Position numbers and translations under genes: made by a program. A stretch of DNA of 64,000 bases from Euborellia annulipes (lineage: Eukaryota; Arthropoda; Insecta; Dermaptera; Anisolabididae): contig JAKCPI010000976.1 in NCBI GenBank assembly GCA_023213315.1, positions 91,515 to 155,514 of the forward strand, in the 5' to 3' direction. The notes below the pieces were generated by a model. It was not told the origin of the DNA. It saw only the letters and a program-made list of their open reading frames with translations, and did not search any database. Shown one piece after another: positions 26,962 through 54,890 of this stretch. Every line of letters begins with the position of its first letter. Position 1 is the stretch's first letter.

Positions 26962-26994
26962 GGCGTTTCAGTCATCAGTCGCGCCCTTCCTCAG
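26962..26994 (-). ncRNA. Weak hammerhead-like core
   Basis: The minus strand reads CTGAGGA, a possible stem region, then GAAACGCC, with GTC/GAC able to start helix I. Helix II pairing is poor and the position before the expected cleavage site is not U. It is probably a decayed member of the group described at 47441-47491. Confidence 0.25.
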
Positions 26995-27066
26995 GACCTA
27001 TGTTTAATAATTACAATAAAACATTAACAAAGACAATCATTTCCTCTCTTCCTCTCACTTCCATTT

Positions 27067-27125
27067 TGAAATAAATAGTGATGAGGTCTAAATGGCCTTA
27101 GATGTCGAAAAAGACTTTAAACAAA
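27067..27125 (+). mobile_element. SINE-B 3' fragment
   Basis: GAAATAAATAGTGATGAGG, CTAAATGGCCTTAGATGTCG, AAAAAGAC; the head is missing. Confidence 0.65.
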
Positions 27126-27660
27126 TAAAAAAAAAGTGAATAAATTTTCTCCCAAAGCATAAATTATTTTAAATAAAAAAAATAATCATTTTTTAATTAT
27201 GCAGAATAATAAGTTCTTAATTAATTTAAATAAAATTATCTAAAGTTATTCAAAATACAATATGCAAAAATAATGGAAGAAGCTTTTTGTAAAATTTAAT
27301 TTTTATTTCTTCTATAACTAAATAAATTGCAATTTTTTTTTGGCTTATTAATTATTTATTAGCTTATTATTGCGTTTATCACTCTCTTTCCTTTTTGCCC
27401 AAGTGGCGGCGGTGCTTTTGTTAAAATAAATAACACCTGTGCATAATTTTTATTTTATTAGAATAAATAAATACATTTAGTTTTAATTTTATCCAATTAA
27501 ACTGCAATTTTTGTTCTGATTCATCGTTGTAGACACTAACCATGCAAGAATGGATAGAACTAGTGCTTACAGTAATGATTTTTATAAGTGATCTCTTTAT
27601 ATATGTAAAGTAAAATACACTAGGTTATGTGTTTCAAGGTTTTTTATTAATTAAAATTAA

Positions 27661-27702
27661 CACTTAATAGGTATTTCGACATTATTGTCATCATCAGAAG
27701 TG
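27661..27702 (-). ncRNA. Candidate hammerhead ribozyme (left arm)
   Basis: On the minus strand: helix I CACTT/AAGTG (5 bp, plus-strand 27698-27702 with 27661-27665), core CTGATGA (27691-27697), one extra T, helix II GACA/TGTC with loop ATAA, GAA, then a possible 2-bp helix III (AT/AT, loop ACCT) and a U-U site before helix I. This is a complete type I-like arrangement. The extra base after CTGATGA is a deviation. Confidence 0.5.
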
Positions 27703-27801
27703 GTTTTCTAAAATGATCCTAACTTCACAAAACTTTCCTTAGCCTATACCTCAAATAGCTGTGTAATTATATATATAGTGGTTTTCTAAAATGATCATTT
27801 T

Positions 27802-27830
27802 CTGATGATGACAGTAATGTCGAAATACCT
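27802..27830 (+). ncRNA. Candidate hammerhead ribozyme core (right arm)
   Basis: CTGATGA (27802-27808), T, helix II GACA with GTAA tetraloop and TGTC, then GAAAT. Helix I is weaker than in the left-arm copy (one G-U pair and one mismatch), suggesting decay. Confidence 0.4.
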
Positions 27831-28786
27831 ATTAAGTGTTAATTTTAATTAATAAAAAACCTTGAAACATATAACCTAGTGTATTTTGTCTTTCATATAT
27901 ACATAATGTTTCAACTAGAGCCTAGAGTAGAAAGAATATGAATCGAATATTTCATCATATAAGATGAAGAACTAAAGAATCGAAATCAGTAATAAAAAAA
28001 ATCGATTTTTTTAAACTTTTTTAGTGAATCGACTCTTCTGAAAATTTAGTAAAGATTTTTCATGTGGACGGTCACATATTGATTATATTTATAATTTTAA
28101 TTTCATTTACCCGTGAGGAAAAAAATTCTCCAAATCATTTGAGGCAGATTCACCTGAATTTAAAAATTACCTTTGAAAATAGTCGCATAAAATGGCATTA
28201 ATAATTTTAAAATTAAAATCGAAATTATTTATTGAATCCTAAATAATAAATAATTTTATGAAAATTTAACAAAAAAGAATTATAAATTCCGTTTATTTCA
28301 AGAAAATGTGAAATTCTAACCACCCAGTTTTGGTTTAAAAATCGATGTTTTTTAACGAAAACGTTTAATTATTATCTCCGCCTACTTTTTAAGGCCCTAA
28401 ATAATAGCCGACGCCTAATCGAAATGTTCGCTTTGTCATTAGCCAATCAAACATTAATCGTCTAATTATCAGCTAGATTGTTTTCAATCTTTGATCAAAG
28501 GAATAGAGACAGAGGAATAGTGCTCACTTAATTTCACATCCCTCCTTTTGATGCATTATTTAAGTAAGAGGAAAAGAAGAAAATTTTACTGGAAGTCGTT
28601 AAAAAAAGAATTTTATTCTTTGTGATTTTTTTATACCAACTCTATCTCTCTTTTTTTTAATAGTTCCCTTAATTAAAATTTACTTTTATTCAGAGAAAAT
28701 TTAAAGATAAAATTTAAAATCTAATGTGATTATCATTTGTTAAAAACAAACTTTGAATAAATGATGCGGTCATGAAGTCTATTTCT

Positions 28787-29044
28787 GCCCTCGGGGCATG
28801 GCGTAGAGGTTAGCGTGCTAACCTCATATACCAAACGTCGCGGGTTCGGACCCCAGGCAGTCCGATGATTTTATTTAAGCCAATTGGATACCAAATGGCT
28901 TAAATAAGAATGCCTGGACCCCAATATGTATAATTATAAATAACGGATATCGTAAAAAGTCTTATATGGCCTCAGTTGCCGAAAAGACTGTATGAATGTG
29001 TGTGTGAGTGTGAGGATGAATGAGAAAAAAAAAAAAAAAAAAAA
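28787..29044 (+). mobile_element. SINE-A, full length, 10-bp target duplication
   Basis: GTCTATTTCT flanks it at 28777-28786 and 29045-29054. The head is GGGGCATGGCGTAGAGGTTA with box B GGGTTCGGACCCC, followed by the body, the GTGTGTGAGTGTGAGGATG tail and poly(A). This is the CATGGCGTAGAGG head subtype. Confidence 0.92.
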
Positions 29045-29228
29045 GTCTATTTCTATATTGTCTGTATTCTTTCACTCTTCAACAATCAGTGATATAAAAT
29101 TTCTACTTCCAAATAAGTCTCTCAGTGAGTTATTGAGACATTTGTCTTCTTTCCTCTCATACTTACTTTGCATGTCCGGATTGAAGAGCACTATTTTAGG
29201 GTTTCCCAGGAGGGATTTTGGGTTTTAA

Positions 29229-29255
29229 CCCCCCCCCCCCTCCCCCCCCCCCCAG
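29229..29255. repeat. C-run
   Basis: Almost uninterrupted C on the plus strand, so G-quadruplex potential on the minus strand. It follows a GC-richer GGAGGGATTTTGGG segment. Confidence 0.7.
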
Positions 29256-29274
29256 GAGAGAAAAAAATTCAAAT

Positions 29275-29716
29275 TGCTATATATTTTATTATGTATATTA
29301 CAAACAGAAAAGAAAATATGGTGAATTACTTCCCCGAGACTTTCTCGTATATTCTTTTGGGATTACGTCTGGGTGTGTGTGTGAACACGATTGCTTAAAA
29401 ACCAAAGCAGTTAGATCGATGAAATTTGTTATATGCTCCTTACACTAAAATTGTAGATTTCTATCAACTTTTGGAGTAAATACGTCACTTGGAAGTAGTA
29501 CTTTACTTAAAAAGTTTTTTCAGAAATTTTGAAATTTCCAATTTTTTTGTTATATTATGATAAAATACTCTATTTTAAAAAGTTTTTAATCTTTGACATT
29601 TTTTCGAAAACTGAATAATTTTTGAAATAATCAAAGAACAATTAGAAAATTTTCGTTAATTTTGATAAAAAATCAAAACAAAATCATACAGGTGTCATTA
29701 AAAAAAGGGTATATAT
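29275..29716 (+). mobile_element. Family D copy (inverted partner at 34621-35076)
   Basis: Contains GTGTGTGTGTGAACACGATT, GATTTCTATCAACTTTTGG, AGTAAATACGTCACTTGG, AGTAGTACTTTACTT and CATACAGGTGTCATTAAAAA. The order of a TG tract, a flat AT block and an AGTACTTTACT box echoes Family C, so D and C may share ancestry. Confidence 0.75.
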
Positions 29717-29994
29717 AAACAAATGAATTTGTTTCACAAATGAGGCATTGAAGAAGCATATCTAAGGATGGATCATTGTATATTAATTGATTTTTAACCT
29801 CTGACGAGTGCACTATATTAAGGTCCAGGAGCTGTTCTATTGCAATAGAATTCATTATCTCACCTTTTCATTTGCCATCTATGTAAAAAGTTAAAATGAT
29901 TTTCATGGGAGGGTAAAAAAATTTTCCGCAGGGCGGAAAAAATTTCGTTTCGCTAAAAACAAGGTCATATGATTTTCACGAGAGCCAAAAATTT

Positions 29995-30178
29995 ATTATC
30001 GATTAATATTTTTTCCCATAATCGATTATTTTTACGTCTGTCCGGACCCATTAATCGATTAATCTATAATCGATTATTTTTTACCATAATCGATTATTTT
30101 TTCGTCTGTCCGGACCCAATAGTCGATTAATCGGAATAATCGATAATCGATTATTTTTCTTCATAATCGAACACCCCT
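29995..30178 (-). mobile_element. hAT-like element end with internal duplication
   Basis: Read on the minus strand it starts TAGGGGTGTTCGATTATG, then repeated ATAATCGATTA motifs, a common style for hAT termini. A block containing CGTCTGTCCGGACCCA occurs twice (about 30037-30052 and 30103-30118). The other terminus was not found. Confidence 0.4.
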
Positions 30179-30805
30179 ATTGAATACCGTATATCATTTT
30201 ACTTGGGAGAAAGTCTAGTTTCTGAATATATTGTAGCCCTATAAAAAAATTATGTTAGGCCTATATAAGATAAAATATTGCACCGCCGCTTCCCTAGAGC
30301 TCCTCGTGGTCTGATGTTTACCAAAAACCTTTCGTTTTTGTATACAAAATTTCAAAACAATTGAATAAATAGTTTTTGATTTTTCGTTGACGAAATAAAT
30401 TACCACAGACACACAGACATCTTCCAAAAAATACTTAAAAGGATTATGATGTTGTTTACTTTAAATTTCAAAAAGTAGAGAATGTAACTTTTGCAGTTTA
30501 GCCCTTGATATTATAATTGTCATCTGTATATAAAACTTGACACTATTCTGATACAAGCGACAATCGGAACGAAAAGAAGAAATTTTTTCAAGAAATAGAA
30601 AAATAGTGTTTTATCTTAATTACCAAGGAGGTTTTCGAAATCCAGTTGTTTTGTTACATCTCTCGCATTTTATTAAACATTTTTTTAAAAGCAAATAAAT
30701 ATTATAGAATTAGTTGATTGGGAATCAATAGAATTTCTTAAGTCAAATGATGACGTGTGAGATGAGGAGCATCGATCGGAGGGGCTGATTTGATGAGGGA
30801 GAGAG

Positions 30806-30869
30806 ATGCAACCCGAGAGCTTGAGATCGGATGGCCTGAGTGACGGGACCTCCCAGGCAAAGCCCAGAG
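30806..30869 (+). CDS. Candidate first coding exon
   Basis: GC-rich in an AT-rich setting. ATG at 30806 opens a peptide beginning MQPESLRSDGLSDG and reaching the strong donor CAGAG|GTAAGA at 30869/30870 after 21 codons plus one base. It has no signal peptide or known domain. Downstream exons would lie beyond long AT-rich sequence and were not identified. It could also be a relic of an unrecognised element. Confidence 0.28.
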
Positions 30870-31097
30870 GTAAGACAAGCCAGGGTCACCTAAGCGCGTT
30901 TTGTCCCGGGATCGGATCAGAATCAGGTCATCAAAAAAATATTAAAAAAAAAAAAACTTCAAAATCTCTTCACTCTTATCGAATTACAAATACGATCTAT
31001 TTATTTTTGTTTAATCCAGGAGCTTTGTAACCTTTTAGATGTCAAACAAAAGGGGAATTCAAGTAACAAAAAAATAAATAAAACCAGATTATAAGAA

Positions 31098-31140
31098 AAA
31101 ATCTGCCTTCACGCTACCAACTACACCACAACCGAGGGCA
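31098..31140 (-). mobile_element. SINE-A head fragment
   Basis: The complement reads CCCTCGGTTGTGGTGTAGTTG then GTAGCG, a box-A-containing head without box B or body. Confidence 0.45.
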
Positions 31141-31787
31141 GAATAAAAATTTTTTTTAAACACTCCCTCTTAACGGCAATATGTACGACAGAGCCCAGAG
31201 CAATGAATTTTTTTTTTTTTTTTTTAATTTATTCGGCCACTACTATTGAATTTGTCATTTGTAATGTCTACTTTCCTAAACTAAAAAATAATTAATTTCT
31301 CCAACACTTTGTAATATATTGGGTGAAAATAATACAGGAAAATAAAATATCTAAACATTATTAAAGAAAAAATAAATATTCTTCAATACAATCAATGTTT
31401 AATATGTCTAAATGTTTAAAATGCCCATCGATCGTTACTGAAAGACAAAAAAATCTTACCGAATTGCAATTAATATTTTAAATTATTTAAAAGCAATAAA
31501 AGAATAAAAATGTTCCTCTTTGACTTTAAAACCTCCCATTTTTAACACTTAATTATAAATAAATGATTTAAATTTTATTCTTCTGGTTTATTTTTTATTA
31601 TTTTATGGCCCCCCTGCCACGACTGAATCAGGTAAAAAAAGAAAAGGAAAGAAAACCAACCTTCGCTCTCTTTCTTAACTGTACAGTATATACTCGATGG
31701 TTATCCTTTTTTTAATTATTAATTAATTAATTAAATGCTTTTATTTAACTTACTCTTTCAAGGTCACCAACTTTATGGCTTTGTTAA

Positions 31788-33520
31788 GGACACTTCCCGA
31801 TGAGCTAGAGGTGTGAAATTTGATATTTAAGAGTCATTTTTGATGACGCAAATTGTGAGTTTGGTTTTACCAAAATGGACCAAACTAATGTGGTACTTTA
31901 TTTGAAACCCTTCGTGAATTAATGTAATTTCAAAAGACTTCCCGATGGGCTAGAGGTGTGAAATGTAATACTTAAGAGGCATTTTTGATGACGCCACTAT
32001 ATGGTGGTTTTGATCAAAATAGACGAAACTAATGTGGTACTTTATTTGAAACCCTTCGCGAATTAATGTAATTTCAAAAGACTTCCCGATGGGCTAGAGG
32101 TGTGAAATGTAATACTTAAGAGTCATTTTTGATGACGCCACTATATGGTGGTTTTGATCAAAATAGACCAAACTAATGTGGTACTTTATTTGAAACCCTT
32201 CGCGAATTAATGTAATTTCAAAAGACTTCCCGGTGGGCTAGAGGTGTGAAATGTAATACTTAAGAGTCATTTTTGATGACGCCACTATATGGTGGTTTTG
32301 ATTAAAATAGACCAAACTAATGTGGTACTTTATTTGAAACCCTTCGCGAATTAATGTAATTTCAAAAGACTTCCCGGTGGGCTAGAGGTGTGAAATGTAA
32401 TACTTAAGAGTCATTTTTGATGACGCCACTATATGGTGGTTTTGATCAAAATAGACCAAACTAATGTGGTACTTTATTTGAAACCCTTCGCGAATTAATG
32501 TAATTTCAAAAGACTTCCTGATGGGCTAAAGGTGTGAAATGTAATACTTAAGAGTCATTTTTGATGACGCCACTATATGGTGGTTTTGATCAAAATAGAC
32601 CAAACTAATGTGGTACTTTATTTGAAACCCTTCGCGAATTAATGTAATTTCAAAAGACTTCCTGATGGGCTAAAGGTGTGAAATGTAATACTTAAGAGTC
32701 ATTTTTGATGACGCCACTATATGGTGGTTTTGATCAAAATAGACCAAACTAATGTGGTACTTTATTTGAAACCCTTCGCGAATTAATGTAATTTCAAAAG
32801 ACTTCCCGGTGGGCTAGAGGTGTGAAATGTAATACTTAAGAGTCATTTTTGATGACGCCACTATATGGTGGTTTTGATTAAAATAGACCAAACTAATGTG
32901 GTACTTTATTTGAAACCCTTCGCGAATTAATGTAATTTCAAAAGACTTCCCGATGGGCTAGAGGTGTGAAATGTAATACTTAAGAGTCATTTTTGATGAC
33001 GCCACTATATGGTGGTTTTGATCAAAATAGACCAAACTAATGTGGTACTTTATTTGAAACCCTTCGCGAATTAATGTAATTTCAAAAGACTTCCCGGTGG
33101 GCTAGAGGTGTGAAATGTAATACTTAAGAGTCATTTTTGATGACGCCACTATATGGTGGTTTTGATTAAAATAGACCAAACTAATGTGGTACTTTATTTG
33201 AAACCCTTCGCGAATTAATGTAATTTCAAAAGACTTCCCGGTGGGCTAGAGGTGTGAAATGTAATACTTAAGAGTCATTTTTGATGACGCCACTATATGG
33301 TGGTTTTGATCAAAATAGACCAAACTAATGTGGTACTTTATTTGAAACCCTTCGCGAATTAATGTAATTTCAAAAGACTTCCTGATGGGCTAAAGGTGTG
33401 AAATGTAATACTTAAGAGTCATTTTTGATGACGCCACTATATGGTGGTTTTGATCAAAATAGACCAAACTAATGTGGTACTTTATTTGAAGCCTCACGCA
33501 AATAAGGCCCTATTAACTAT
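31788..33520 (+). repeat. 144-bp satellite array, 12 units
   Basis: Units begin (A)GACTTCCCGATGGGCTAGAGG at 31792 (diverged), 31936, 32080, 32224, 32368, 32512, 32656, 32800, 32944, 33088, 33232 and 33376: an exact 144-bp step. The first unit is the most diverged, and a thirteenth decayed unit follows to about 33620. Variant sites (CCCGAT/CCCGGT/CCTGAT; GATCAAAAT/GATTAAAAT) define four unit types whose order shows higher-order structure. There is no continuous open frame. Confidence 0.95.
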
Positions 33521-33675
33521 AGTTTTGAATTTTGATATTTACGAGTCATTTTTTATGATAATGAATAATTTTTCAATTGAACCAAATCAATACAGGCCAA
33601 ACTAATGTGGTACTTTATCATATTGATGATTTTTGATAAGACTAAAAGACTAAAAAGCTTAAAATAAAAATAAAA

Positions 33676-33960
33676 TAAAAAAAAGATTTTTAAAAAAATG
33701 CTTTTATTTAAATTGAGCTAAAAAGAGAGAAATAAGAAAGAAATAATTTAATTGTTCTTGTTAAAATTTTTTAATATTTATGACTTAAAATAAAAGCGTG
33801 GGGCGCGAGCCTCGGAATCACTTCGAAGCGCCCCACGCTTTTATTTTAAGTCAAATATTAAAAAAATTTTAACAAGAACAATTAAATTATTTCTTTCTTA
33901 TTTCTCTCTTTTTAGCTCAATTTAAATAAAAGCATTTTTTTAAAAATCTTTTTTTTTTTT
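33676..33960. mobile_element. Near-perfect foldback element
   Basis: Arms 33676-33806 and 33828-33960 are complementary over about 130 bp with almost no mismatch. The 21-bp centre follows GCGTGGGGCGC. Inner arm landmarks are GACTTAAAATAAAAGCG and AATTGTTCTTGTTAAAA. It lies about 55 bp past the satellite remnant. It encodes no protein. The tips are A- and T-runs, so target duplications cannot be defined. Confidence 0.9.
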
Positions 33961-34070
33961 GATCTTAGCGTTATTATATTGGCTTACAAATAATTTAAAT
34001 ATAAACTATTATCGTGAATTTATGTAGGCCCTATACGTAGGCCTATATAGGCCATTTTTATCGCAATTAA

Positions 34071-34289
34071 TTTTTTTTTTTTTTAAACATTCACACTTTT
34101 TTCTCATTCACACTCACATTCACACAGTCTTTTCGGCAACTTAGGCCATTTAAGACTTTGACGATAAGCGTTATGAATATATATTATTTAGGGTCCAGGC
34201 ATTCTTATTTAAGCCATTTGGTATCCAAATGGCTTAAATAAAATCATCGAACTGCCTGGGGTCCGAACCCGCGACGTTTGATATACGAG
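34071..34289 (-). mobile_element. SINE-A, 5'-truncated, 11-bp target duplication
   Basis: ATCGCAATTAA flanks it at 34060-34070 and 34290-34300. From the T-run it runs through the tail, body and box B complement (GTCCGAACCCGCGACG) and stops before box A, a truncation typical of target-primed reverse transcription. Confidence 0.9.
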
Positions 34290-34300
34290 ATCGCAATTAA

Positions 34301-34335
34301 TCAAATTGCCTTAGATGTCGAAAATAAAAAAGAAT
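34301..34335 (+). mobile_element. SINE-B scrap
   Basis: CAAATTGCCTTAGATGTCG followed by AAAATAAAAA matches the SINE-B 3' end only. Confidence 0.4.
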
Positions 34336-34620
34336 TGCATATGATCTTTGAAGAGGGGCTAATTTTTCAAAATCTTGTTTTTGGTAGCCCAGATATAATT
34401 TCATTTTATTTTTATACTCTATATGTGATTAAATCGATTTCTATTTAAATTATTTATTTATCTAGGATTTGTACAAGAAACTTTACAGTATAATCAAACG
34501 GGTTTTATTTTTGAATTTTTCGTTTACCCACCCGAGCAGGTTCCTCAAATGTAAAATTTTAAAGAATAGAATGCATTTTTTATATCCATTAGGCGCTAAG
34601 CCCGAACAAAAATTTTAACA

Positions 34621-35076
34621 TATATTTACCCTTTTTTTAATGACACCTGTATGATTTTGTTTTGATTTTTTATCAAAAGTAACGAATATTTTCTATTTCT
34701 TCTTTGATTATTTCAAAAACTATTCAGTTTTTGAAAAAATGTCAAAGAATAAAAACTTTTTAAAATAGAGTATTTTATCATAATATAACAAAAAAATTGA
34801 AAATTTCGAAATTTTTGAAAAAACTTTTCAAGTAAAGTACTACTTCCAAGTGACGTATTTACTCCAAAAGTTGATAGAAATCTACAATTTTAGTGTAAGG
34901 AGCATATACCAAATTTCATCGATCTAGCTGCTTTGGTTTTTAAGCAATCGTGTTCACACACACACCCAGACGTAATTCCAAAAGAATATACGAGAAAGTC
35001 TCGGGGAAGTCAATCCCCATATTTTTATATAAAATTTCATTCATGATAATATATATAGAATATCTAATATCACCCA
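34621..35076 (-). mobile_element. Family D copy, inverted relative to 29275-29716
   Basis: Complement of all Family D landmarks in reverse order, from TTAATGACACCTGTATG to CACACACACACCCAGACG. Identity with the 29.3-kb copy is high over about 440 bp. Confidence 0.8.
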
Positions 35077-35159
35077 ATATATCAATTATTTTTCCAATTT
35101 AAACAAATGGCTTTGTAATAATAAAATTCCAGTTTGGTATGGGCTCGTGTTTCAACAAA

Positions 35160-35310
35160 TCTCTCTCTCTCTGTCTGATCATCTGATCGTCTGATGGTCG
35201 ACGGGCGGGCGGGCGGCAAGAGGCGTCAGTACGGCGCCTTCGGTAGCCACAACAGAAAGAAAGGAAGAGGGGTACCTGAACCCTCGATTTGTAAATTCCT
35301 CCTCTCACCT
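35160..35310. other. GC- and CpG-rich patch
   Basis: After a CT run, the sequence includes GGTCGACGGGCGGGCGGGCG and CAGTACGGCGCCTTCGG. Open frames of 69 codons exist on both strands and neither has a recognisable motif. Candidate promoter, exon or element piece; unresolved. Confidence 0.3.
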
Positions 35311-40134: not shown

Positions 40135-40980
40135 TCAATCCGATGTAATAAAATAGGTTTACATTTAGAATTTAGAACTCATCCAAGGGTCACTTAAAAA
40201 AATCAATAAATTGTTTCTTTTTTTTGAATTTCGGTATTGAAGGCCCTTTAAAAACTTACAATAATTTTTAATATAACTTTCCCTTCTATATTTATTTAAA
40301 TTGTTAATAAATATAATTTAAATAATTTTGAAACCCCACCCTGACAAATTTTGACAAATGTCAACATCTAAAAGCCAATGGAAGTGGGCCACGCAGTCCT
40401 ATGAATATTTATTTAAATCAAATGGTTAAAATAAATGCCTGGCTTTAAATACTAAAAAGAAAAAAAAATATTGATTTTTTTAAGGTGCGCGTCTCGAAAA
40501 ACCGTTAAAACACGATTGACTCGAGGCGGCACCAGATGGCGTTAGTGTTCCCCCATTGGAAAACACGTAACTTGTTCCATTTAATTCTAGACTTTCCAGC
40601 TAATTAATTAAAGGCAAAAAATTAATTATTCTTTAACACAATGATTACTAATTTAATTATCTACAACTTATAGAGCTCCTTTTTTTTAAATATATTTTAT
40701 TTAATGCGATTAATCTAAAAAAAAATTTTTTTTTTTGAAAATCAAAAAAAGGGCTTCTATAAGTTGTAGATATTTTAAATAGCTTTAATTTAAAAAAAAT
40801 TTGAGGTCGATAGCTTCAAAATTGTGGCAGCTGGAAAGTCCCAAAATTAGCACCCCGAGACGCGCACCTTAAGTGACTTTTGGATGAGTGTGAAAAACTT
40901 TTATCGATATTTTCATTTCATGAATAAATAAAAAGGCTAAATTCTAAATGTAAACCTTTTTTTATTACATTTGATTGAAA
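40135..40980. mobile_element. Inverted-repeat element hosting a TTAA element
   Basis: The outer arms, about 40139-40195 and 40870-40975, share GGTTTACATTTAGAATTTAG and CTCATCC...GTCACTT with their complements. The right arm carries about 45 extra bases. Confidence 0.6.
40484..40868. mobile_element. TTAA-target MITE, 385 bp
   Basis: TTAA flanks it (40480-40483 and 40869-40872). The termini are the perfect inverted repeat GGTGCGCGTCTCG. Inner regions also pair, around CTATAAGTTGTAGAT and ATCTACAACTTATAG. No transposase. It fits a piggyBac-type target preference. Confidence 0.8.
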
Positions 40981-41556
40981 TTAACCGAATATCGGATACT
41001 TTTTGTTTTTATTACTTAAAAAAAATACTAACAACATGATTTTGGCTACATTTTGATTTCTAAACACAATACACTATGCATGTACTAGACTAACCAATCT
41101 AGAAGCAATATTTCAATCACGTTATTATTATTATTTTTTTTTTTTACTCTTTTGAAAAATAAGCTCCTAATATTGGATGATTACCCCAATAGCTGCTCTT
41201 ATGATGGGTGACGTTTTGCAACCCGAAATATTTGCAAATAAATAGTGTCTATGGTGGATAAAGAGGCGCTGGTTATTTCCCCTATTTTATCATTATATTA
41301 CCCATCATTTAATTTTATCAAATATGGAAGAATAATATATATTCTTTCTTGTGATAAGGGATTGTTCTTTTCACGTCCCCATTTAAATCACCTCAGATGG
41401 TTAAAAAATTGTATCAATGTTCGAAAGTACAGTATGTTCATTATTTCGCTTTGAAAGGGGAGGTTAAAAGACTGCAAGAAAAGAATATTAATATATTTAT
41501 ATCAGTTGACCTAAGAGATAAGAGACGAGATTTATATATGAAGATGGTCTTCTTAA
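40981..41556. other. Unrecognised DNA with short open frames
   Basis: Two overlapping plus-strand frames (41245-41454 and 41397-41579) could be pieces of one decayed coding sequence, but no family is recognised and they run into the TTAA element. Confidence 0.3.
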
Positions 41557-43041: not shown

Positions 43042-43079
43042 AAATAATAAAAGAACTGTGGTTTATTTGTAAAAATTAG

Positions 43080-43114
43080 AACGTTTCGGCTACTCATTCT
43101 GTGGCCTTCTTCAG
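43080..43114 (-). ncRNA. Candidate hammerhead core (left arm)
   Basis: Minus strand: CTGAAGA, extra A, helix II GGCCAC/GTAGCC (5 of 6 pairs, loop AGAATGA), then GAAAC-GTT. Helix I is poorly paired in this copy. Confidence 0.4.
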
Positions 43115-43203
43115 GTACAATTCAGTTAAGATTATAAAGATTGCTACATCAAAATGAGATTTGCACAGATATAATGTAATAAATAACTTTTGTATCTTAA
43201 CTG

Positions 43204-43251
43204 AATTTTATCTGAAGAAGGCAAAAAGAGTGGTCGAAACGTTGTAATATT
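43204..43251 (+). ncRNA. Candidate hammerhead ribozyme (right arm)
   Basis: Helix I AATTTTAT (43204-43211) with GTAATATT (43244-43251), 7 of 8 positions paired including one G-U. CTGAAGA at 43212, GAAAC at 43236 and GTT before helix I. Helix II has decayed. Confidence 0.4.
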
Positions 43252-43317
43252 TACAAATAAACTACAATTAAATCAAATTCTTTTACTATTGATACCAACT
43301 GTGAAAGCCTAAACTCC

Positions 43318-43511
43318 AAAAAAATCTGGTGTGACTGGTTGCACAGCACACAACTTTCTCTTATCTTCAGACCATGTTGCGATAACCACTTTTTTGGTTT
43401 CAGAGGGCCTCAAAACGTATATATCCATCAAAATATCGACATCGAATTTTTGATATGAATCCAATACTTTCTCTCTATATATATTAACATATATAGAGAA
43501 AGTAAAAAGCA
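43318..43511 (-). mobile_element. Family C, internally deleted copy
   Basis: Both termini are present but the middle is missing. The TCTGGTGTGACTGG arm runs directly into ACCATGTTGCGATAACCAC, and the copy ends in the AGAGAAAGT hairpin. At 194 bp it shows that the two ends can persist together in short form. Confidence 0.8.
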
Positions 43512-45205: not shown

Positions 45206-45478
45206 GCCCTCGGGGCATGGCGTAGAGGTTAGCGTGCTAACCTCATATACCAAACGTCGCGGGTTCGGACCCCAGGCAGTCCGATGATTTTATTTAAGCC
45301 AATTGGATACCAAATGGCTTAAATAAGAATGCCTGGACCCCATATATGTATATTTATTAATAACGGATATCGTAAAAAGTCTTATATGGCCTCAGTTGCC
45401 GAAAAGACTGTATGAATGTGAGTGTGAGTGTGAGTGTGAACGAGAAAAAAAGTGTGAATGTTTAAAAAAAAAAAAAAA
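45206..45478 (+). mobile_element. SINE-A, full length, 8-bp target duplication
   Basis: CTATTTGT flanks it at 45198-45205 and 45479-45486. The head is the CATGGCGTAGAGG subtype with box B GGGTTCGGACCCC. It is very similar to the copy at 28787-29044. Confidence 0.92.
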
Positions 45479-46420: not shown

Positions 46421-46727
46421 ATAAAGTTTTTTTTCGGTTGCTGAGGAATTGAATAAATATTTATTTATTTGTATCGATGGCAATCGGGGGACATTCCACA
46501 CGCTGGTTTTCCGGCGCCACCCACCCGAGTTTCTTCCATACTTTGCATTTCTTCACTGGAATGATCTTGGTAGCTGATGCTCGATCTTCTCTGTTGTCTT
46601 CTCTTTTTATTCAAATTTGTTTACCGAAAGTGTTAATATTAATTAACTTGCAATATTGACATTGTCAATCAAATGGGAAATAAAGAACACAAAAATCAAC
46701 TTCAGGAGTGTTGGCTTCTGATACCAA

Positions 46728-46808
46728 AAGCCAGTTAAGGAAGATTGAAACAAAAAAATTTAATAAATATAAAATGTCTTTATTATTTGAGGTAATCAAC
46801 ATTCATAT
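46728..46808 (+). repeat. Direct repeat, copy 2 (partner 44750-44840)
   Basis: See copy 1. A SINE-B 3' scrap (46812-46862, GTCGAAAAAGACC) follows immediately. Confidence 0.7.
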
Positions 46809-47211
46809 GTCCCAGACGACTCTAAATGGGGTCCGTTGTCGAAAAAGACCTTAAAACAAATTAAAGAAAAAAAGCTGAAGGAATGAAGAAATTTATTTTT
46901 TTTCTTCTCTATCCTGGCTGCAAAGAACACTCAAGAAAAATTTAATTTTAATAAGATAAAGAATATCGTTAATTTTAGAAAGTATTTGTTACTCTTGTTA
47001 TTATATCAATCGCAACTACGGGACTTGGGGGGTCAAATCCCCCACCCCGCAAAAAAAAAATAAGTTAATTTTATTTATTTTTCTAAAAGAAGTTATTTTC
47101 ATTAAATAAACCGACAATTTGATAAAATTAAGACGAACTCTAAATTCCCTTTAAAAAATGAATTTTATAGCTTTAGTATTGTGTTCAAGATAATAAGGAA
47201 TATTTTCCAAA

Positions 47212-47540
47212 GAAGAATGCAGCCAAATTTATTTCATTTGATTTTAATAAAAATTCTAATAACTTGCTGCAGGACGAGACTTAGGCTAAGTCTCGTCCTG
47301 CTCCTATGTACTAGGCTCTAATTCCTGCCATTATATAAAAATAATTTGAGATTATATTCAACTATTTTATATTATAATAATTTACTCTATCTATACTACC
47401 ATAATAGTTTGAATGTATTGTTTAAAAACATAAAGACAAAATCACAGCTCCGATGATGGTTCAAACCCGAACCGAAACGTCAGCAAGTGATTATAATTTT
47501 TATTAAAATCAAATGAAATTAATTTGGCTGCATTCTTCTT
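47212..47540. mobile_element. Inverted element with a hammerhead-like motif and inner hairpin
   Basis: The arms 47212-47270 and 47482-47540 pair over about 58 bp (GAATGCAGCCAAATTTATTT, GATTTTAATAAAAATT). Next to the left arm is a perfect hairpin at 47270-47302 (GCAGGACGAGACTTA and complement). The ribozyme-like core lies beside the right arm; the mirror core on the left is lost. Confidence 0.75.
47441..47491 (+). ncRNA. Candidate hammerhead ribozyme, best-formed copy
   Basis: Helix I: ATCAC (47441-47445) with GTGAT (47487-47491), and GCT (47447-47449) with AGC (47482-47484), separated by a small internal loop. Core CCGATGA (47450-47456; the usual U4 is C) and one extra T. Helix II: GGTTC/GAACC with a 6-base loop (47458-47473). 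GAA (47474-47476), a minimal AC/GT helix III, then C at 47481 as the expected cleavage position. Hammerheads with minimal helix III are known from Penelope-like retroelements and retrozymes; activity here is not shown. Confidence 0.55.
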
Positions 47541-48211
47541 TGTTCTTTGATTGCCGCCCCCTGATATCTGCCACCCGGGGCACATGCACCCACTGCCCCC
47601 TCCTAGATCCGGCCCTGAGTTATAATTCTCGAAATTATGGTAAATTAATTAGATGTTTACTATAAGATTTTTAGGGGACATCAGATATTCCGAGACATTT
47701 TTTTTAATTTTTCAAAATTTACCCTAGTAATTCAAAATAGTAAATTTTATTGGGATGAAGCACACTTTTATACAAAAGGGGCTGTCACAAACACTAGCTT
47801 AATTATCATTTTTTTATTTTCTTACTTTCGAATACTTACTTAATACACTCTAAATCTTCTTTTAGAGTTATTGAACGTTAGGGTTATAAGAATGAATATT
47901 GATACGGTTCTCAGGGCTCGGCGCTGATAGCTTGTCTCCCCGGTGACCGCAAACTGCCGATCGAGTTGCTCTTCTGCCCTTTTCTCCCAAGTGTCTAGCT
48001 GCACTCAGGGATTTCCAGCCAACCGCAACATCCCCTTGACATCCCGGCCTTTGTTCCTGGATCCCTCCTGGTGCCTCCGTCCATTCCCATTGGATTACAT
48101 TTCACTATTTCCTTCCTCTCCCCCTCTCTCTCACTCTCACTTACTCTTTCGACTTGACTTTATTATTTTACAAAAGTAAAAAGTATTTATTTAATTATCT
48201 ACCAGTAAATC
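47541..48211. other. Unrecognised DNA with GC/pyrimidine-rich patch
   Basis: 47920-48160 is GC- and C/T-rich (CTTGTCTCCCCGGTGACCGC, ATCCCTCCTGGTGCCTCCG) and open for 78 codons in one frame with a serine/proline-rich, low-complexity product. Possible retroelement UTR or exon; unresolved. Confidence 0.35.
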
Positions 48212-48792
48212 TAACTATATACCTATATATGTTAATATATATTTATATAGAGAGAAAGTATTGGATTAATGTCAAAAATTCGATGTCGGGATTTTGATGG
48301 TTTTGAGGTCCCCTGAGTCAAAAAAGTGGTTTTTACAACATGGTCTGCTGTGTGTCTTCAATTTAAACCATGAAAGAATGGAGGAAGGCTGAAATTTTAT
48401 ATTTAAGTTAGGCATTCCCCTGAGGCGTGAAAATAAGATTTTAATCAAAATCGACCAAAAAGTAGTACTTTACTGATGTACTTTTTCAGTTTTATTCGAT
48501 TTGATCAAAATTTGCTCCAACGATTTTTTTTAAATTCATAAATCAACTATTTTTTAGATGCTCTTTAAAATGTATATTCTCATTTTGTATTTAAAATCTT
48601 CTGAAGACCACTTTACTCTTGTACTTCATCTGTTTATAAATTGTAAATCTTGAATTCAAATGTTCCGTAGCCTTACTGTCGGAAACTATATATATGTCGA
48701 CACAAAAAAATTCTGGAGTGACAAGCACAGAACACAACTTATCTACCGGAGGTGAGAGTGCTGTGCGACCACTACCACCAGATTTTTTTTCT
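48212..48792 (+). mobile_element. Family C element, slightly shortened
   Basis: The left hairpin lacks its first few bases. Internal blocks are present, but the ATGGTTGCCATGG segment is deleted near 48630. The right hairpin is degraded (CGACCACTACCACCAGAT). Confidence 0.8.
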
Positions 48793-50120
48793 TAGCTAAT
48801 ATTTAAATGAAATTTTATTTATGTCCTAGACTTGAACTGGGATATTTAAAAGTCAAAAATTTTAAAAAGCTTTTACAAAATAATTTTTCATTGTGTATTT
48901 AAAGAATAAAAGAAACATCCCGAAAAGAAAAGAAAGGTCGAGTCATTTGGGGAGGGAATTTTCAAAGTGTAAAAACACCGTATCAGAAGAATTTCTCTCT
49001 TGAAAACAATCCGAAAGGACATTTATTTAAAAAAAAAGCCAAAAACCCTCTGATGATGATTAATTAACGCAAACGTTTTGGTCAAAAGGGCCGCTCGGGG
49101 AGGGGCGGGGGTGGTTATTTATGACCTCCCTTCCCAAGGGTGGCTAATTTGCGGACGAGTTTGCAAGCTTGATGAGCCCTCAGAGACTCGCCAAGGGTCA
49201 TTTTAGGTTTCAGGGAGAGAACCCTTTTTGGCCAATTATCCCCCTTCCCCTCCCATCATCTTTCTCTATTATGTAATTATCTCTCTTATCTGTTTATCTT
49301 CTGAATTTATTATATTATTAAAATTTTTTTTTTTCAATTTTTAAACAATAGATGATTTATCAAGTGTGTGTAACGAGGCGTTATTTTTTTTCAATTATTA
49401 TAATTACGTTACGTTGTTGTTTTTTTTTTTTTTAAATAAATATCAGGGCGACCATTTAATTTTAATTTTTCGTCAATTCCAAACTTATTAACATGATAAT
49501 ATATAATTTTTTTTGATGATATTGAAATTTGATTAATTATATAATAATACAAGCTATTTAATTTTTTCCCTCTCGTCATTTTTTATTAAAAAAAAAAAAA
49601 AAAATGATGATGATGGAAATTAAAAATATTTCGAAATCGATTGAACTCAGTTAAAAATGAATTATAAATTAAAAAAAAAAATTGAATTATTTAAATCAGT
49701 AGAAAATTAATAAAGAAAAATTTAATATATAATAAAAAATAAATAGATTTTCTATAATTTTATCATTTTTTTTCAATATTAATTAAACGGTATATATATA
49801 TATATATATATATATATTTTTTAAAATAAAACAGAGCTATCATTCGCTAATCTTTCGCCTCCCCATATTCATTTGACTTCTCGCCTTAATACAATAGTTT
49901 GAAAACTCTCTTCAAAGATAAACCAATATTTCCTTTCTATAAATTTCATATCTAGAGTAAGAGAAAATAAAAATAATTTATCGAGATAATTTATCGTTCT
50001 CTGCCCTTTGACTTATACCATCCAACGGTGCTCCAGCTTATTGATTCCTTCCGAATAATCGGATTTGTACAATTTCTCAAAAGAGACACTGGTTTATACA
50101 ATAATGTTTATCTTTAATAA
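48793..50120. other. Non-repetitive DNA, TA microsatellite
   Basis: (TA)n lies at about 49791-49817. A GC-richer, repeat-free part at 49080-49250 (GGGCCGCTCGGGGAGGGGCG, TTTGCGGACGAGTTTGC) has no recognised coding content and may be conserved regulatory DNA. Confidence 0.4.
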
Positions 50121-50180
50121 ATTAATAAGAGGGTAGAAAATGAGAGATCAGCTAAGGTTTTTTCTTTATTTATTTAATCC

Positions 50181-50226
50181 CCACGGCTGATGTTTCCGTT
50201 CCGTGTTTCACCATCTTCAGAGCTGG
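50181..50226 (-). ncRNA. Candidate hammerhead ribozyme (left arm)
   Basis: Minus strand: helix I CCA...GCT with AGC...TGG (50221-50226 with 50181-50188, two-base bulge), CTGAAGA (50214-50220), an extra T, a decayed helix II, GAAAC and ATC before helix I. Confidence 0.45.
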
Positions 50227-50392
50227 CGAAAATTCATTATGAAAATGTCATAATGGATTTTATACTTTGATGAACCAAACTCTTATGTAATAAATATGTA
50301 CACACAATGCATAAATCATTTATGTACCTGGTCATTGCAATAATGGTTCAAAAATGTATAAAATTCACTATTACACTTTCATAATGACTTTT

Positions 50393-50442
50393 CGTCTGCT
50401 CTGAAGATGGTTCAAACACGAAATCAAAACGTCAGCCATGCG
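50393..50442 (+). ncRNA. Candidate hammerhead ribozyme (right arm)
   Basis: Helix I GCT (50398-50400) with AGC (50434-50436) plus CGT (50393-50395) with GCG (50440-50442). CTGAAGA at 50401, extra T, GGTTC as the 5' side of helix II with a mutated 3' side, then AAAAC-GTC where GAAAC is expected. Compared with the left arm, the outer helix I bases differ yet still pair. Confidence 0.4.
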
Positions 50443-50546
50443 TATTAAATAAATAAAGAAAAAACCTAGCTGTATCTCTCATTTTCTACCCTCTTATTAA
50501 TATAATAACATCAATTATAAATTGCTTTTTTTTTAAAATAAATTAC

Positions 50547-50705
50547 GTGTCCTTAAGTCACAGCTCAGTGGTAGAGTTTCTGCCTCTTTTGCTAGAAGTC
50601 ATCCCGTCTCATGCGACAACAATGGAATTGATTACTAATCCAATTGAAATAAATATAGACGGGGTTTAAATAGCCTTCGATGCCGAAAAAGACCATAAAT
50701 AAAAT
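50547..50705 (+). mobile_element. SINE-B
   Basis: Head GTCACAGCTCAGTGGTAGAG, a degraded box B, a long spacer, then AGACGGGGTTTAAATAGCC, TCGATGCCGAAAAAGACC and an A-rich tail. Confidence 0.78.
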
Positions 50706-52399
50706 TTAAAAAAAAATCAATTAATTAAGTACTTTTTATTTTTCAGAGATGTTACAAATCATCTTTGTGTTTGAAAAAAAATCTTGCAGCCCTCGATTTT
50801 TCCAATTATTTTTACATCCTCCCTATTCCCCAGAGTTCGCTCTCTCTCTACTATATGTTTCCCAATTTAAAAAACGACTGGTTAGATAGTGATATCTTTA
50901 AGCAAAGAGGAGATTGTGAAAACAAATTTTGAAAATTTGGACAAATCCTATTCGGAAGGGATCAACAGCATTGGACGAAGGATGGAAGCCTAAGAAGAGA
51001 CTACCAGTATGTTGAAAATTATAATGATGTTTACCCTTAATAATAAATTATGTGCTTTTTATTTTTTCAGAGAGTTTACAAATCACTCGTAACCGTATAT
51101 GTGGGTAACATCCGTCCAAAACGGTCCTTCTTCAAAATAGAAGAAACTCCCATATAGAACACGGGTTTACTCTAATACGATTTTAGAATTGCCCAATTGA
51201 TTTGTTAAATAAAAATGTTTTCCATTAACATGTTGAGATTGGATCAAAATGGGTTGGGAATTAATCTACTTTTTAATATCTCTAGAATTTCTGTCGATTT
51301 TAATTGAGCCATAGCATGTCTCTTTTATTTTTGTGATTTAAGAGAAAGAGAGAGAGAATTAAATAGATAATAATACTGAAAAAAAGGAACATAATCTTCT
51401 GTTATTGTAAAACAAATACAATTACGTTTCAAGGCGATAGGGATCGGTTTAATTTTGTTTTATTTTATTTTTTTTTTTTTGTTAGGTTTAATGTTGTCTA
51501 ATAAAGAATGTCATTAAATTGTGGATTAAGTTTTATGCATGTTAATTATTATCAGGGTCATAAAGAGGAAGGGTGAAAGGATTGGGTGGGAGGAAGGCGG
51601 AGGTGATAACTAATTCATTTCTGTTCTCATTAATTAATTCCGACGGGTTTATTATGAAGGTGATTTTATTTGCAATTGACATCTAGCTCTGAGGGTTAGC
51701 TTAAAGGGAAAAAAAAGTCTCGCTTTTTATTCTAGTGTTCAAAAAAAAAAAAAAAATGTATTATTTTTGACATAATCTCTGTCTTATTTCTGAAAGGAAG
51801 AATAAAAATTCAAAATTTAGCATTTCTCTAGGATTTTTGTTAATTTCTTTCCCTTGACTTTTGTAGGCTTAATGTTATTTGCGATTTTATTCGTGTATTT
51901 AAAAAAAAATAAATCCCTTAACCTAGTTTCTTTATTTGGACAAAGAGAAGTAGGTCATAGATTAAAATTTGTTTTTGGATTTTAGCTCTCACTGTACGTA
52001 GTACTAAGGGAGAGAGCTTATGCAGAGATTCCGGTGTCCGTCTCTCTGTCCGTCCGTAAGCATAAAAATTACGTTCTGAATCTAAGGTCTTAGAAAAATA
52101 ATAATTACACATACGTATTCAGCATAAAAAACTGGTTCAGGGAAAAATACGTTTTGGTCCCTAGTACTTCCGGTTTTTTAAATATTTAAAATTTTTTAAT
52201 TTGTTTACATTTTATTTCCATTTGATTACATTTTAATTTTTTGTTTACATTCATCAGAATGTAAACAAACGTGGCCATTTTTTTTCTTAAATATGGAGAA
52301 ATAACCTTTATTAAAATGTTTAATGTCAAGGAAATCCATAGTGAGAGCGCGGCGCCCCTTTGAATTTACTACTGTAAATTCTTTCCTTCTTTTTTAATT
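50706..52399. other. AT-rich DNA, little recognised
   Basis: A short patch at 51960-52090 (GAGAGAGCTTATGCAGAG, CCGTCTCTCTGTCCGTCCG) resembles the TGTCTGTC-type repeat scraps. No gene is recognised. Confidence 0.4.
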
Positions 52400-53117
52400 T
52401 TTACTTTCTCGTACCCTATATATGAAATATATAGGAGAGAAAGTATTGCGATCATGTCAAAAATTCGATGTCGAGATTTTGATGGATATACATGTTTTGA
52501 GGTCCCCTGAGTCCAAAAAAGTGGGTCCCGCAAATTGGTCTGTGTGTGTGTGTGTATGTGTGTGTGTGTGTCTGTGTGTGTGGACAGATATTTAAGCATG
52601 AAGGAATTGAGCTACGGAGTTGAAATTTTATATTTAACTTAGGTACCTTTGAAGAATCTCAAAATAAGCTTTTGAACAAAATCGGCCAAAAAGTACTAGT
52701 ACTTTACTGATGTACTTTTTCAGTTTTTTTTCGATTTTCTCAAAATTCCCTCCAAGGATTTTTTTTTAAATTCATAAATCAACTATTTTTTAGATGCTCT
52801 TTAAAATGTATATTCTCATTTTGCCGTTGAAATCTTCTGAAGACCACTTTACTCTTGTTCTTCATAGGAAAGATAAGAAATGGTTGCCATGGTAACGGAA
52901 TTTAAATTTTTTCCAATACTTATGAAATTTTGAAAGTATGGAAAAGAAAATGAGAAAAGAAAAAGACATCTAAAATGCAAGATTGAAACTAAGGTGCTAT
53001 GGGAAACTAAATATATCTCGACACAAAAAATCTGGTGTGACCAGCACGGTGCACAACTTTCTCTTACCGAAGGGTAAGAGAAAGTTGTGTGCTGTGCGCC
53101 AGTCACACCAGATTTTT
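52400..53117 (+). mobile_element. Family C element, full length
   Basis: Both hairpins are present. The left one is the ACTTTCTCGTACCC variant. The internal TG tract is at 52541-52581. There is an extra AAGAAAATGAGAAAAGAAAA insertion near 52942. The right hairpin at 53030-53116 has long arms (CTTTCTCTTACCGAAGG and complement). Confidence 0.88.
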
Positions 53118-54090
53118 ACTCTCTAAACTGTTTACCACTCAACAAGCCATTATCAGTGTTTATTTAAATTACACATGTCCACCTAAAAATTTATTTTTGG
53201 CAGCTTGAGATTGTCAACATCAACAGTAAACTCAATTTCTTTTTTTTTCCCTTGATTTCTCTCATAGGTGATGATATCATATCGAGATAATAATATAAAT
53301 TTACAACATAAATTGATAACAATTTGGTGTAAAATTATATAAAACATACAGTATATAAATTATCAAAGCCCAAATAAGTCAAAACAACAAAATCAACTTA
53401 ATGTCCTTTCAATAAGTACCTTTGGTACTAAGGAGCTCTAAGGGTGGCTGTATACTGAAATGCTCAATAAATTTATTGCCTCAAAACTTTAGAATTTTTT
53501 ATGTTCTGATAATTCAGAACTTTATTTTCAAGACTATGTAAAATTTTTTGAGTGCATCAAAAACCTCCCATAATTTAATAAGAATTTTCTAATTTGTAAA
53601 CTAATAAACTTAATTTAAACATAAAACTTTTTAAAATATATAACTACACTCTCTATTGCAGAAAAGCTACAAATATAGGATTTTTTAAAAAATATCATAG
53701 TTGGTCTATTCCAATCAATAATTAATTTTATGAGTAATTATTACTTATCTAGATATCGATTTCGAGATTGAATTACCCCCAGTTGGTGCTCTTAGGATAT
53801 CGGACCTCATTTTCTGCGGTCAATCAGCTACTTTTCTAAATTAGTGACATCTAATGTCTCGATCAATGGACATTGGTCGACTTCTGAAAGATATCTCCTT
53901 GGAGAAATTTAATATTTCAAGGTTATTTTGACTCAAAATTTCATCCCGCTGGACATTTGGCAGCCAAATGAAAATTTGATTTTAAAATGATTGGGAAAAT
54001 GTTTAAAAACCCCCCCCCCCAAGGGGGGGGGGTTTAATTCGCTTTGGAAAAGGTTGCATTTCGCTTTTGGAATTAGAAGAAAATGCAGGT
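53118..54090. other. AT-rich DNA with a C/G snapback
   Basis: No gene is recognised. A run of 12 C, then AA, then about 11 G at 54010-54033 forms a short perfect inverted repeat. Confidence 0.45.
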
Positions 54091-54116
54091 TTCCTTTTAT
54101 TTATCCTTCCTCACCT

Positions 54117-54147
54117 GATGTTTCGTTCCCGGTATAAACACATTCAG
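54117..54147 (-). ncRNA. Weak hammerhead-like core
   Basis: Minus strand: CTGAATG, a short helix (GTT...AAC) directly before GAAAC, then ATC. Helix I is only 2 bp. Probably a decayed relative of the 50.2-kb copies (shared GATGTTTC...GTTCC). Confidence 0.25.
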
Positions 54148-54254
54148 AGTTATTAATATATGTATCCTCTTTTGTCCTGACAGATTTTGGTTACTCTGAG
54201 AAGTAACTTTCATGGGAATAATACTGTGGTGGGTCGAATACACATATCGAAGGG

Positions 54255-54575
54255 ATGCAGATATCAGTCAAATTGGGATGCACCAGCTCCAATAAAACTT
54301 TCACAATAAGACGTTTCGGCCTAAATTTATTGGACCATTTTCAGTTATTGATAATGGTACTTATATTTTAAAACACACAATGGGATTTAACTAGAAATTT
54401 GTCAATGAAGATCATTCATCTCTGATCTTGGGCGCAGAAACAATACGATTTGTAAGAAACAAATAAATTATGACAAAGCCTGGTTAAATCAAGGGTATTT
54501 TACAATATGAGAAAATAAATTTAGGCTGAAACGTCTTATTCCCATTTTGACTGATATCTCAATCTCTTCATTAAA
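54255..54575. mobile_element. Inverted element with hammerhead-like cores
   Basis: The outer sequences ATATCAGTCAAATTGGGA (left) and TCCCATTTTGACTGATAT-type (right) are complementary, as are AATAAGACGTTTCGGCC and GGCTGAAACGTCTTATT. The left arm carries an extra TGCACCAGCTCCAATAAAAC. The centre is about 165 bp. Confidence 0.65.
54304..54350 (-). ncRNA. Candidate hammerhead ribozyme
   Basis: Minus strand: a perfect 6-bp helix I CAATAA/TTATTG (54345-54350 with 54304-54309). Core CTGAAAA (the usual G8 is A) and an extra T. Helix II GGTCC/GGCC-type with a G-U pair and an AT-rich loop. GAAAC, then GTC directly before helix I. The core G-to-A change would be expected to weaken activity. Confidence 0.45.
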
Positions 54576-54671
54576 ATCATATCACAGTCACAACTACAAG
54601 CAAATGTTGTTGTAAACATTCAAATAAATTTACCAATAAAAAACTCGAAACAACCAATTTTATTTTATATT

Positions 54672-54890
54672 GATATATTACTATTAAAATAATTTAACTA
54701 TGGTTTATTTGTAAAAACTACAACGTTTCACTCATTCTGCATCATTCTTCAGATACAATTCATTTAAGATTACAAAGGTTGTTACATCTGTAATCTTAAC
54801 TGAAATGTACCAGGAGAGGAGCACAGAATGAGTGGCCGATACGTTGTAATTTTTACAAATAAATCACTGTTAAATCAAATTCTTTTATTA
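54672..54890. mobile_element. Inverted element, second copy of the 43.0-kb family
   Basis: The arms carry GGTTTATTTGTAAAAACTAC and its complement; outer arm sequences AAATCAAATTCTTTTA and relatives match the 43042-43291 element. Both cores (54722-54752 minus, 54811-54845 plus) are decayed but recognisable by AGAATGAGTG and ACGTTGTA. Confidence 0.7.

Follow-up and report, generated by a model that had tools for sequence, protein, structure and literature searches.

Short foldback elements with outward-facing hammerhead-type cores in Euborellia annulipes: probable non-autonomous relatives of Penelope-like elements

The 64,000-nucleotide stretch of the genome of Euborellia annulipes (Insecta; Dermaptera) analyzed here, referred to below as the window (contig JAKCPI010000976.1, positions 91,515 to 155,514, assembly GCA_023213315.1), encompasses short foldback elements at 27.6, 43.1, 47.3, 50.2, 54.3 and 54.7 kb, each with two inverted arms. 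These six places had been named in the original prediction, made from the letters of this sequence, and self-inverse comparison within the window recovered foldbacks at all of them (6/6). The elements are 0.2–0.45 kb long and contain no open reading frame (ORF). They are probably short, non-autonomous Penelope-like elements (PLEs), each composed of two copies of one pseudo-long terminal repeat (pLTR) arranged head-to-head, which would be produced by a proposed cycle that involves two nicks in the target.

Foldback arms and hammerhead-type cores

The elements at 43.1 and 54.7 kb belong to one family (69% identity), the likeness between those at 47.3 and 50.2 kb is confined to the core stretch, and the remaining window elements gave no match when compared with each other. 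We refer to the families by position; families 27 (27.6 kb), 47 (47.3 kb) and 54 (54.3 kb) are each represented here by a single copy.

The common layout of the arms is CTGANGA, one base, a stem and GAAACGTY. CTGANGA followed by a stem of at least 3 bp and GAAA occurs 6 times in the window, whereas dinucleotide shuffles (n = 100) contained this pattern 0.57 times on average and never more than 3 times. A core scan without the one-base spacer yielded stems of only 0–3 bp. A covariance model (R1), based on an alignment of 17 core families in which families 43 and 50 are represented by one row each, taken from another locus, gave 10 matches in the window at an expect value (E) below 0.01, 3 of which (the left core of 27.6 kb and those of 47.3 and 54.3 kb) are themselves rows of the model. 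At this threshold, opposite-strand, outward-facing cores are present in both arms at 27.6, 43.1 and 50.2 kb, and in a single arm at 47.3 kb (+ strand) and 54.3 kb (− strand); the left core at 54.7 kb (54708–54766) is decayed (E 0.09). The original prediction that most of the elements carry a core in each arm is therefore too generous for the window, with 3 of 6, but describes well the other copies of families 43 and 50: without the window's own copies (L001 and L041), both arms reach E<0.01 in 29 of the 34 and 17 of the 18 distinct copies, respectively.

The core scan comprised 170,268 bases, including the window, and the locus flanks in it had not been selected for cores. The flanks yielded 12 further core types that, together with the five window families, were aligned as 17 representatives. 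Of the 167 cells in the 10 pairs of helices I and II, five per helix, 86.8% are paired, compared with 57.0% after shuffling; the covariation score is 0.833 against 0.267 (none of 500 shuffles was as high) and falls to at most 0.19 when the 3' side is slid by 1–3 columns; and 9 of the 10 helix pairs show changes on both sides. RNAalifold proposed the same two helices from the same alignment. The complete pairing of helix II (68/68) is circular, given that this helix served as a criterion of core selection, but helix I did not, and in a swap test 58 of its 68 own pairs formed compared with 32.7 (standard deviation 3.6) for swapped strands (0/20000 swaps). Adding three flank cores (L006, L044, L060) gave 62/80 against 36.3 (standard deviation 3.9; 0/20000), and additionally removing three window cores that had been chosen by eye gave 53/68 against 31.5 (0/20000). 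The flank cores outside the tests on the 17 representatives are L006 (2573), L044 (2091), L060 (2914), L062 (2059), L007 (2149) and L045 (2195); helix I is poor in those of L006 and L044. Helices I and II thus both form and covary from one family to the next, so that the cores are not by-products of the arm palindromes, a possibility raised along with the original prediction.

The cores contain the CUGANGA...GAAA letters and helices I and II of a type I hammerhead, with CUGANGA followed by an additional base. Helix III is absent in cis: the GAAACGTY families have just two letters between A15.1 and U16.1. The four letters around the helix III site are, however, self-complementary in 13 of the 17 families, which would allow helix III to form between two RNAs, and such a dimer is mentioned for PLE-associated variants (PMC7761336). 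Judging from the sequence, ribozyme cleavage, if any, would probably occur in dimers joined through the self-complementary ACGU.

Rfam gave no hammerhead at the gathering score and none at E up to 5 between 26 and 56 kb; this silence carries little weight because six phage-type loci with look-alike cores are equally without an Rfam match. As a separate observation, scanning IMG/VR for CTGANGATGG...CCGAAACGTC identified 15 loci on phage-type contigs (L070–L084), with a stem II of 5–7 bp in 14 of the 15; no inverted repeat across the core and none of the PLE motifs sought was found at these 15 loci, which are perhaps hammerheads with the same one-base spacer.

Table 1 Foldback elements, their cores and related features of the window (R1, covariance model of the cores)
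Feature	Positions	Strand	Details
Diverged 27.6-family pieces	26299–26524	.	mostly inverted relative to 27.6; 89–92% matches to 27.6
Single core outside the six foldbacks	26948–27008	-	R1 38.2 bits, E 3.2e-7
Foldback 27.6 kb	27598–27901	.	self-inverse 79% over 311 columns
Left-arm core of 27.6	27656–27711	-	R1 E 2.4e-6; model row
Right-arm core of 27.6	27788–27843	+	R1 E 0.0012
Coding-PLE remnant (core and start of ORF region)	41184–41274	+	core 41184–41246, R1 E 0.0017
Foldback 43.1 kb	43046–43321	+	self-inverse 74% at 43054–43269; right-end tail ~43273–43321
Left-arm core of 43.1	43066–43128	-	R1 E 1.2e-6
Right-arm core of 43.1	43198–43257	+	R1 E 8e-6
Foldback 47.3 kb	47208–47542	+	arms 47208–47269/47481–47542, 62 nt, 95%
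Core of 47.3	47436–47495	+	R1 E 2.8e-10; model row
Foldback 50.2 kb	50114–50535	+	arms 50114–50508, self-inverse 80% over 405 columns; tail beyond right arm
Left-arm core of 50.2	50175–50234	-	R1 E 6.5e-5
Right-arm core of 50.2	50387–50447	+	R1 E 1.3e-8
Foldback 54.3 kb	54249–54569	.	54249–54331/54514–54569; arm pieces 27 nt 96%, 30 nt 87%
Left-arm core of 54.3	54296–54358	-	R1 E 2.1e-9; model row; helix I CAATAA/TTATTG
Foldback 54.7 kb	54692–54922	+	self-inverse 74% (54692–54875); cores decayed

At 47.3 kb, the left core is absent, and a near-perfect 33-bp palindrome (47269–47301) occupies its expected place. No inverted arms surround the single core at 26948–27008 (searched across 26700–27300). 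This core has a GGTC/GACC-like helix I, a type also present at L003 (426–486), L046 (1349–1409), L010 (136–196) and L097 (4330–4390); no inverted arm was found at L003, L046 or in the window, and the cores of L010 and L097 lie too close to a locus end for such a comparison. Cores of this type are perhaps solo pLTRs. Foldbacks without a core lie at 33667–33966 (arms 97% identical, with a GC-rich inner palindrome) and 40648–40782. Elsewhere in the window, a minisatellite-like array at 56348–57387 is open in several frames on both strands.

Tails and arm agreement in genome-wide copies

The search for further copies covered the 903-Mb assembly. For family 43, there were 1824 first-look candidates, which is not a count of true copies, and 40 places were scored (80 matches, listed on both strands), all of which were examined (L001–L040); for family 50, the corresponding numbers were 2137 first-look candidates, again not a count of true copies, 40 scored and 29 loci examined (L041–L069). 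Duplicates, that is, rows from the same place or near-identical ones, were dropped from the counts of tails and target-site duplications (TSDs): L012 and L015 in family 43 (n = 38) and L047, L050, L052, L061 and L063–L066 in family 50 (n = 21). These counts still include L009, L029 and L040 (family 43) and L043 and L053 (family 50), which were also left out of the junction, arm-agreement and private-variant counts and, in family 43, of the variation counts.

Copies of both families consist of inverted arms and a tail of about 30 nt at a single end. All copies but L026, L037 and L049 have the tail at exactly one end (36/38 in family 43 and 20/21 in family 50), and no copy has it at both ends; in the window's 50.2-kb copy, the tail score is 26 at the tail end vs 14 at the opposite end. 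TSDs of about 8–17 bp lie outside the tail and the opposite arm. A TSD score of at least 9 was reached by 22/38 copies of family 43, compared with 42/1406 swapped flanks, and by 19/21 copies of family 50, compared with 23/420. Thus, both families show the one-sided 30–40 nt tail and the short TSD of PLEs. The mirror-image ends and fixed-length TSD of a miniature inverted-repeat transposable element (MITE) or a foldback DNA transposon are not observed because the tail breaks the symmetry of the ends and the TSD length varies. Measured from the ATG in CTGAAGATGG of family 50, the cut site lies at +27 nt and the tail end at about +124 nt.

The two arms of a copy resemble each other more than expected: in families 43 and 50, the within-copy arm identity exceeds all 20000 permutations. 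Columns 102, 103 and 115 of family 50 are discordant between arms in 0 of the 16, 18 and 19 scored copies (7.4–8.0 expected), and columns 9, 18 and 114 of family 43 in 4/30, 7/35 and 1/19 (14.4, 17.5 and 9.1 expected); columns 9 and 18 of family 43 define at least three haplotypes, each concordant between the arms. Copying of a fixed unit would pass on a change in one arm to the same arm alone, whereas the subfamily variants observed are concordant. Doubleton private variants occur in both arms of one copy in 5/35 cases in family 43 (0.51 expected) and 8/27 in family 50 (0.73 expected), that is, roughly tenfold over chance. Gene conversion was considered as the main source of the arm agreement and rejected: private variants are mostly confined to one arm (76 in one arm vs 5 in both in family 43, and 70 vs 8 in family 50), so that later conversion looks too weak. 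Almost all copies differ in their inversion junction (34/35 in family 43 and 18/19 in family 50), and the longer arm is either the tail arm or the opposite one. From these patterns in the sequences, it seems that both arms stem from a single source and are paired up at, or close to, each insertion.

Coding relatives and the route of insertion

Regular expressions and motif stretches gave no credible match to reverse transcriptase (RT) or GIY-YIG in the window, and the short elements lack the ORF with RT, often joined by GIY-YIG, that characterizes PLEs; therefore, they are classed only as non-autonomous relatives of PLEs. In the genome, a search with GIY-YIG (PF01541) gave 710 candidates, of which 150 were scored, with 118 matches; among the matches listed, 12 adjacent pairs were seen by eye on 11 contigs, 9 of them head-to-head, 2 in the same direction and 1 tail-to-tail. 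Twenty candidate PLE loci (L085–L104) were compared. Two of these, L085 and L091, are UvrC genes on contigs of the assembly, which therefore seems to contain bacterial sequence.

Coding PLEs of this genome carry the same kind of core. L097 has an 852-aa ORF with RVT_1 and GIY-YIG and a pair of direct pLTR copies (668 bp), both containing a core (E 1.7e-6), plus an inverted piece; its protein relatives contain PF26215, mostly also PF00078 and PF28514, one of them being an uncharacterised Diabrotica protein. The PLE remnant of the window is 91.6% identical to this locus at 41192–41274. L103 encodes an 822-aa ORF with RVT_1 and GIY-YIG and has a core in each pLTR (E 1.6e-11). In L100 and L102, 5'-truncated PLE ends stand head-to-head, and an outward core lies close to each outer end (E 1.5e-10 and 3.2e-4). 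L098 (1–5779) is a 5.8-kb palindrome (99.3%) of two head-to-head PLE copies with long ORFs on both sides, which may be a real insertion or a misassembly; for its 825-aa ORF, the domain listing gives RVT_1 alone, and the genome profile search places GIY-YIG there. L099 and L101 have one core each, and L089 and L090 none below E 0.1. A repeat like the flank of L094 recurs in the window at 28787–29030, 45206–45450, 63040–63250, 34110–34289 and other places; a tRNA-like stretch seen by eye suggests that it is perhaps a short interspersed element.

One pLTR links the two kinds of element directly: the arms of the foldback L062 (1948–2216), which lies outside the window, are 86–94% identical to the pLTR of L103, and the match of one arm is 35 nt longer, as expected of a tail. 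Among the PLE loci compared, the search for autonomous partners of the window families gave no more than weak matches to L100 of the 47.3-kb element (72% over 95 bp, E 4e-9) and of a family 50 copy (70%, E 4e-5). Taken together, published PLEs share with these elements the one-sided tail, the TSD, the pLTR-like inverted arms and the placement of the core with respect to the tail, and the coding PLEs of this genome have the same kind of core and head-to-head copies, all of which agrees with the suggestion in the original prediction that these are non-autonomous PLEs.

A PLE protein has been reported to cut each strand of its target and to extend both, with RT starting inside the RNA at two adjacent sites and the tail being the stretch between them (PMC11167929). 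In the cycle that we propose, each pLTR would carry an outward minimal hammerhead core of type I and, after it, the start point of PLE reverse transcription. A helper PLE protein with RT and GIY-YIG would bind RNA containing the pLTR and nick both target strands about 8–17 bp apart, after which the pLTR RNA would be reverse-transcribed from both nicks. At one nick, synthesis would start at the far internal site and leave a tail, and at the other, it would start at the near site and leave none; the two cDNAs would then meet and be joined at or near their 5' ends. The published scheme, if applied to both nicks with one start site per side, would yield two inverted arms whose cores face outward, a single tail, a TSD and a junction private to the copy. 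That two such converging events, one per nick and from different internal start sites, are the normal route for PLEs and their satellites, with palindromic insertion the rule, is a bolder proposition, which we hold slightly more doubtful than not.

If this is the case, thousands of ORF-less pLTR pairs would be natural records of insertion, each event having left a single tail and a junction of its own. The in vitro work on PLE insertion leaves its later steps to be validated (PMC11167929). The short, abundant non-coding elements described here separate the signals acting in cis, namely, the hammerhead and the two RT start sites, from the ORF, and the same elements allow one to ask why the hammerhead is retained.

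Several observations weigh against the reading as non-autonomous PLEs paired at insertion. In family 43, columns 29, 39, 53, 70, 84, 95 and 108 are discordant between arms about as often as by chance, as expected of mutations after insertion; the TSD score is below 8 in 14 of 38 copies, including the window's own at 43.1 kb, which has no clear TSD; and compensatory change was sought within this family and none was seen. The private junctions could also arise by later deletion of the palindrome centre. Among the coding loci, L087, with the layout of L100 and L102, has weak cores (E 0.017 and 0.057), the single core of L098 is weak as well (E 0.057) and L104 lacks a core below E 0.1; among the PLE loci compared, none matches the arms of families 43, 54 and 27. 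Furthermore, in vitro PLE insertion is independent of the hammerhead, mutants of which are without effect (PMC11167929). This last result, together with the requirement of a protein for cleavage in the same work and the lack of helix III in cis, speaks for the view that the core has been retained for protein binding or priming and no longer cleaves. We judge this view separately because it is compatible with the non-autonomous PLE reading and concerns only the role of the core, and find it possible although rather doubtful: it is the letters of the hammerhead core that are conserved, with changes in both helices, and in family 43, the core columns vary half as much as the other arm columns (2.4% vs 4.8%).

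The one-tail rule, arm agreement and private junctions also yield concrete predictions that should separate priming at two nicks from self-priming, in which the end of the first pLTR cDNA snaps back and primes its own copying into the second arm. Self-priming has been proposed for the head-to-head pLTRs of rotifer PLEs (PMC3846280) and would explain the inverted arms, their agreement and the variable junctions, and often one arm is full-length and the other shorter. However, a copy of the first arm should repeat the tail, yet two-tailed copies are lacking (0/38 and 0/21), and the first-made arm should be the longer one, whereas either arm can be long, so that we consider self-priming unlikely. 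Still less probable, in our estimate, is that the whole palindrome is copied as a fixed foldback, either from a hairpin RNA by reverse transcription or in the manner of a MITE-like DNA element, with centres deleted and arms kept alike by gene conversion or founder effects. The many first-look candidates would fit such copying, and palindrome centres are known to be unstable, but conversion appears weak given the mostly single-arm private variants, several subfamily sites are almost fully concordant between arms, including the haplotypes of family 43, and the single tail deprives the ends of mirror symmetry. Retrozymes, small elements that spread via ribozyme-made circular RNA, share with these foldbacks the small size, the lack of coding sequence and the type I core, but the arms here are inverted, whereas in published animal retrozymes the repeats are direct and in tandem and the hammerheads fuller (PMC7229834), and the tail has no role in a circular-RNA cycle; this explanation is scarcely credible.

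Comparison with known systems

PLE-associated minimal hammerheads, the subject of reports by Cervera and de la Pena in 2014 and Lunse et al. in 2017, reportedly lack a usable helix III in cis, and activity as dimers is said to have been proposed for them. The cores described here share this lack but occur as two outward cores per foldback and, perhaps as a further difference, have one spare base between CTGANGA and helix II.

Penelope/Poseidon-type PLEs, such as Pen2a_Av of rotifers (PMC3846280) and PAc of Anolis (PMC11167929), have head-to-head inverted pLTRs with one optional tail of about 30 nt, a short TSD, a minimal hammerhead and similar spacing from the ATG to the cut site and RT start: in the Anolis PLE, the cut site is 26 nt and the tail end 111–118 nt from the ATG, compared with 27 and about 124 nt in family 50. 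Unlike these PLEs as described, the short elements lack the ORF and consist of two pLTR copies only, and they form several families with many copies in which a tail on exactly one end is the rule. The short Penelope elements of Heliconius are likewise short, non-autonomous and Penelope-related (PMC6685494), a comparison confined to these general traits, and animal retrozymes are small non-coding repeats with type I hammerheads, although, with their circular RNAs, they are not foldbacks (PMC7229834). The alternative offered in the original prediction, an undescribed foldback group, is therefore too strong, since head-to-head inverted pLTRs of PLEs are already in print (PMC3846280). In the titles, abstract openings and passages of open-licence literature surveyed, we found no description of hammerhead-bearing pLTR elements that are high-copy, lack an ORF and are arranged head-to-head. 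Separate publications exist on short non-autonomous Penelope elements, on minimal hammerheads, on tails and on inverted pLTRs; what appears to be new, within this literature, is that all of these come together in several abundant families of ORF-less foldbacks of a single genome, along with the one-tail rule and the evidence that the arms and the junction are made anew.

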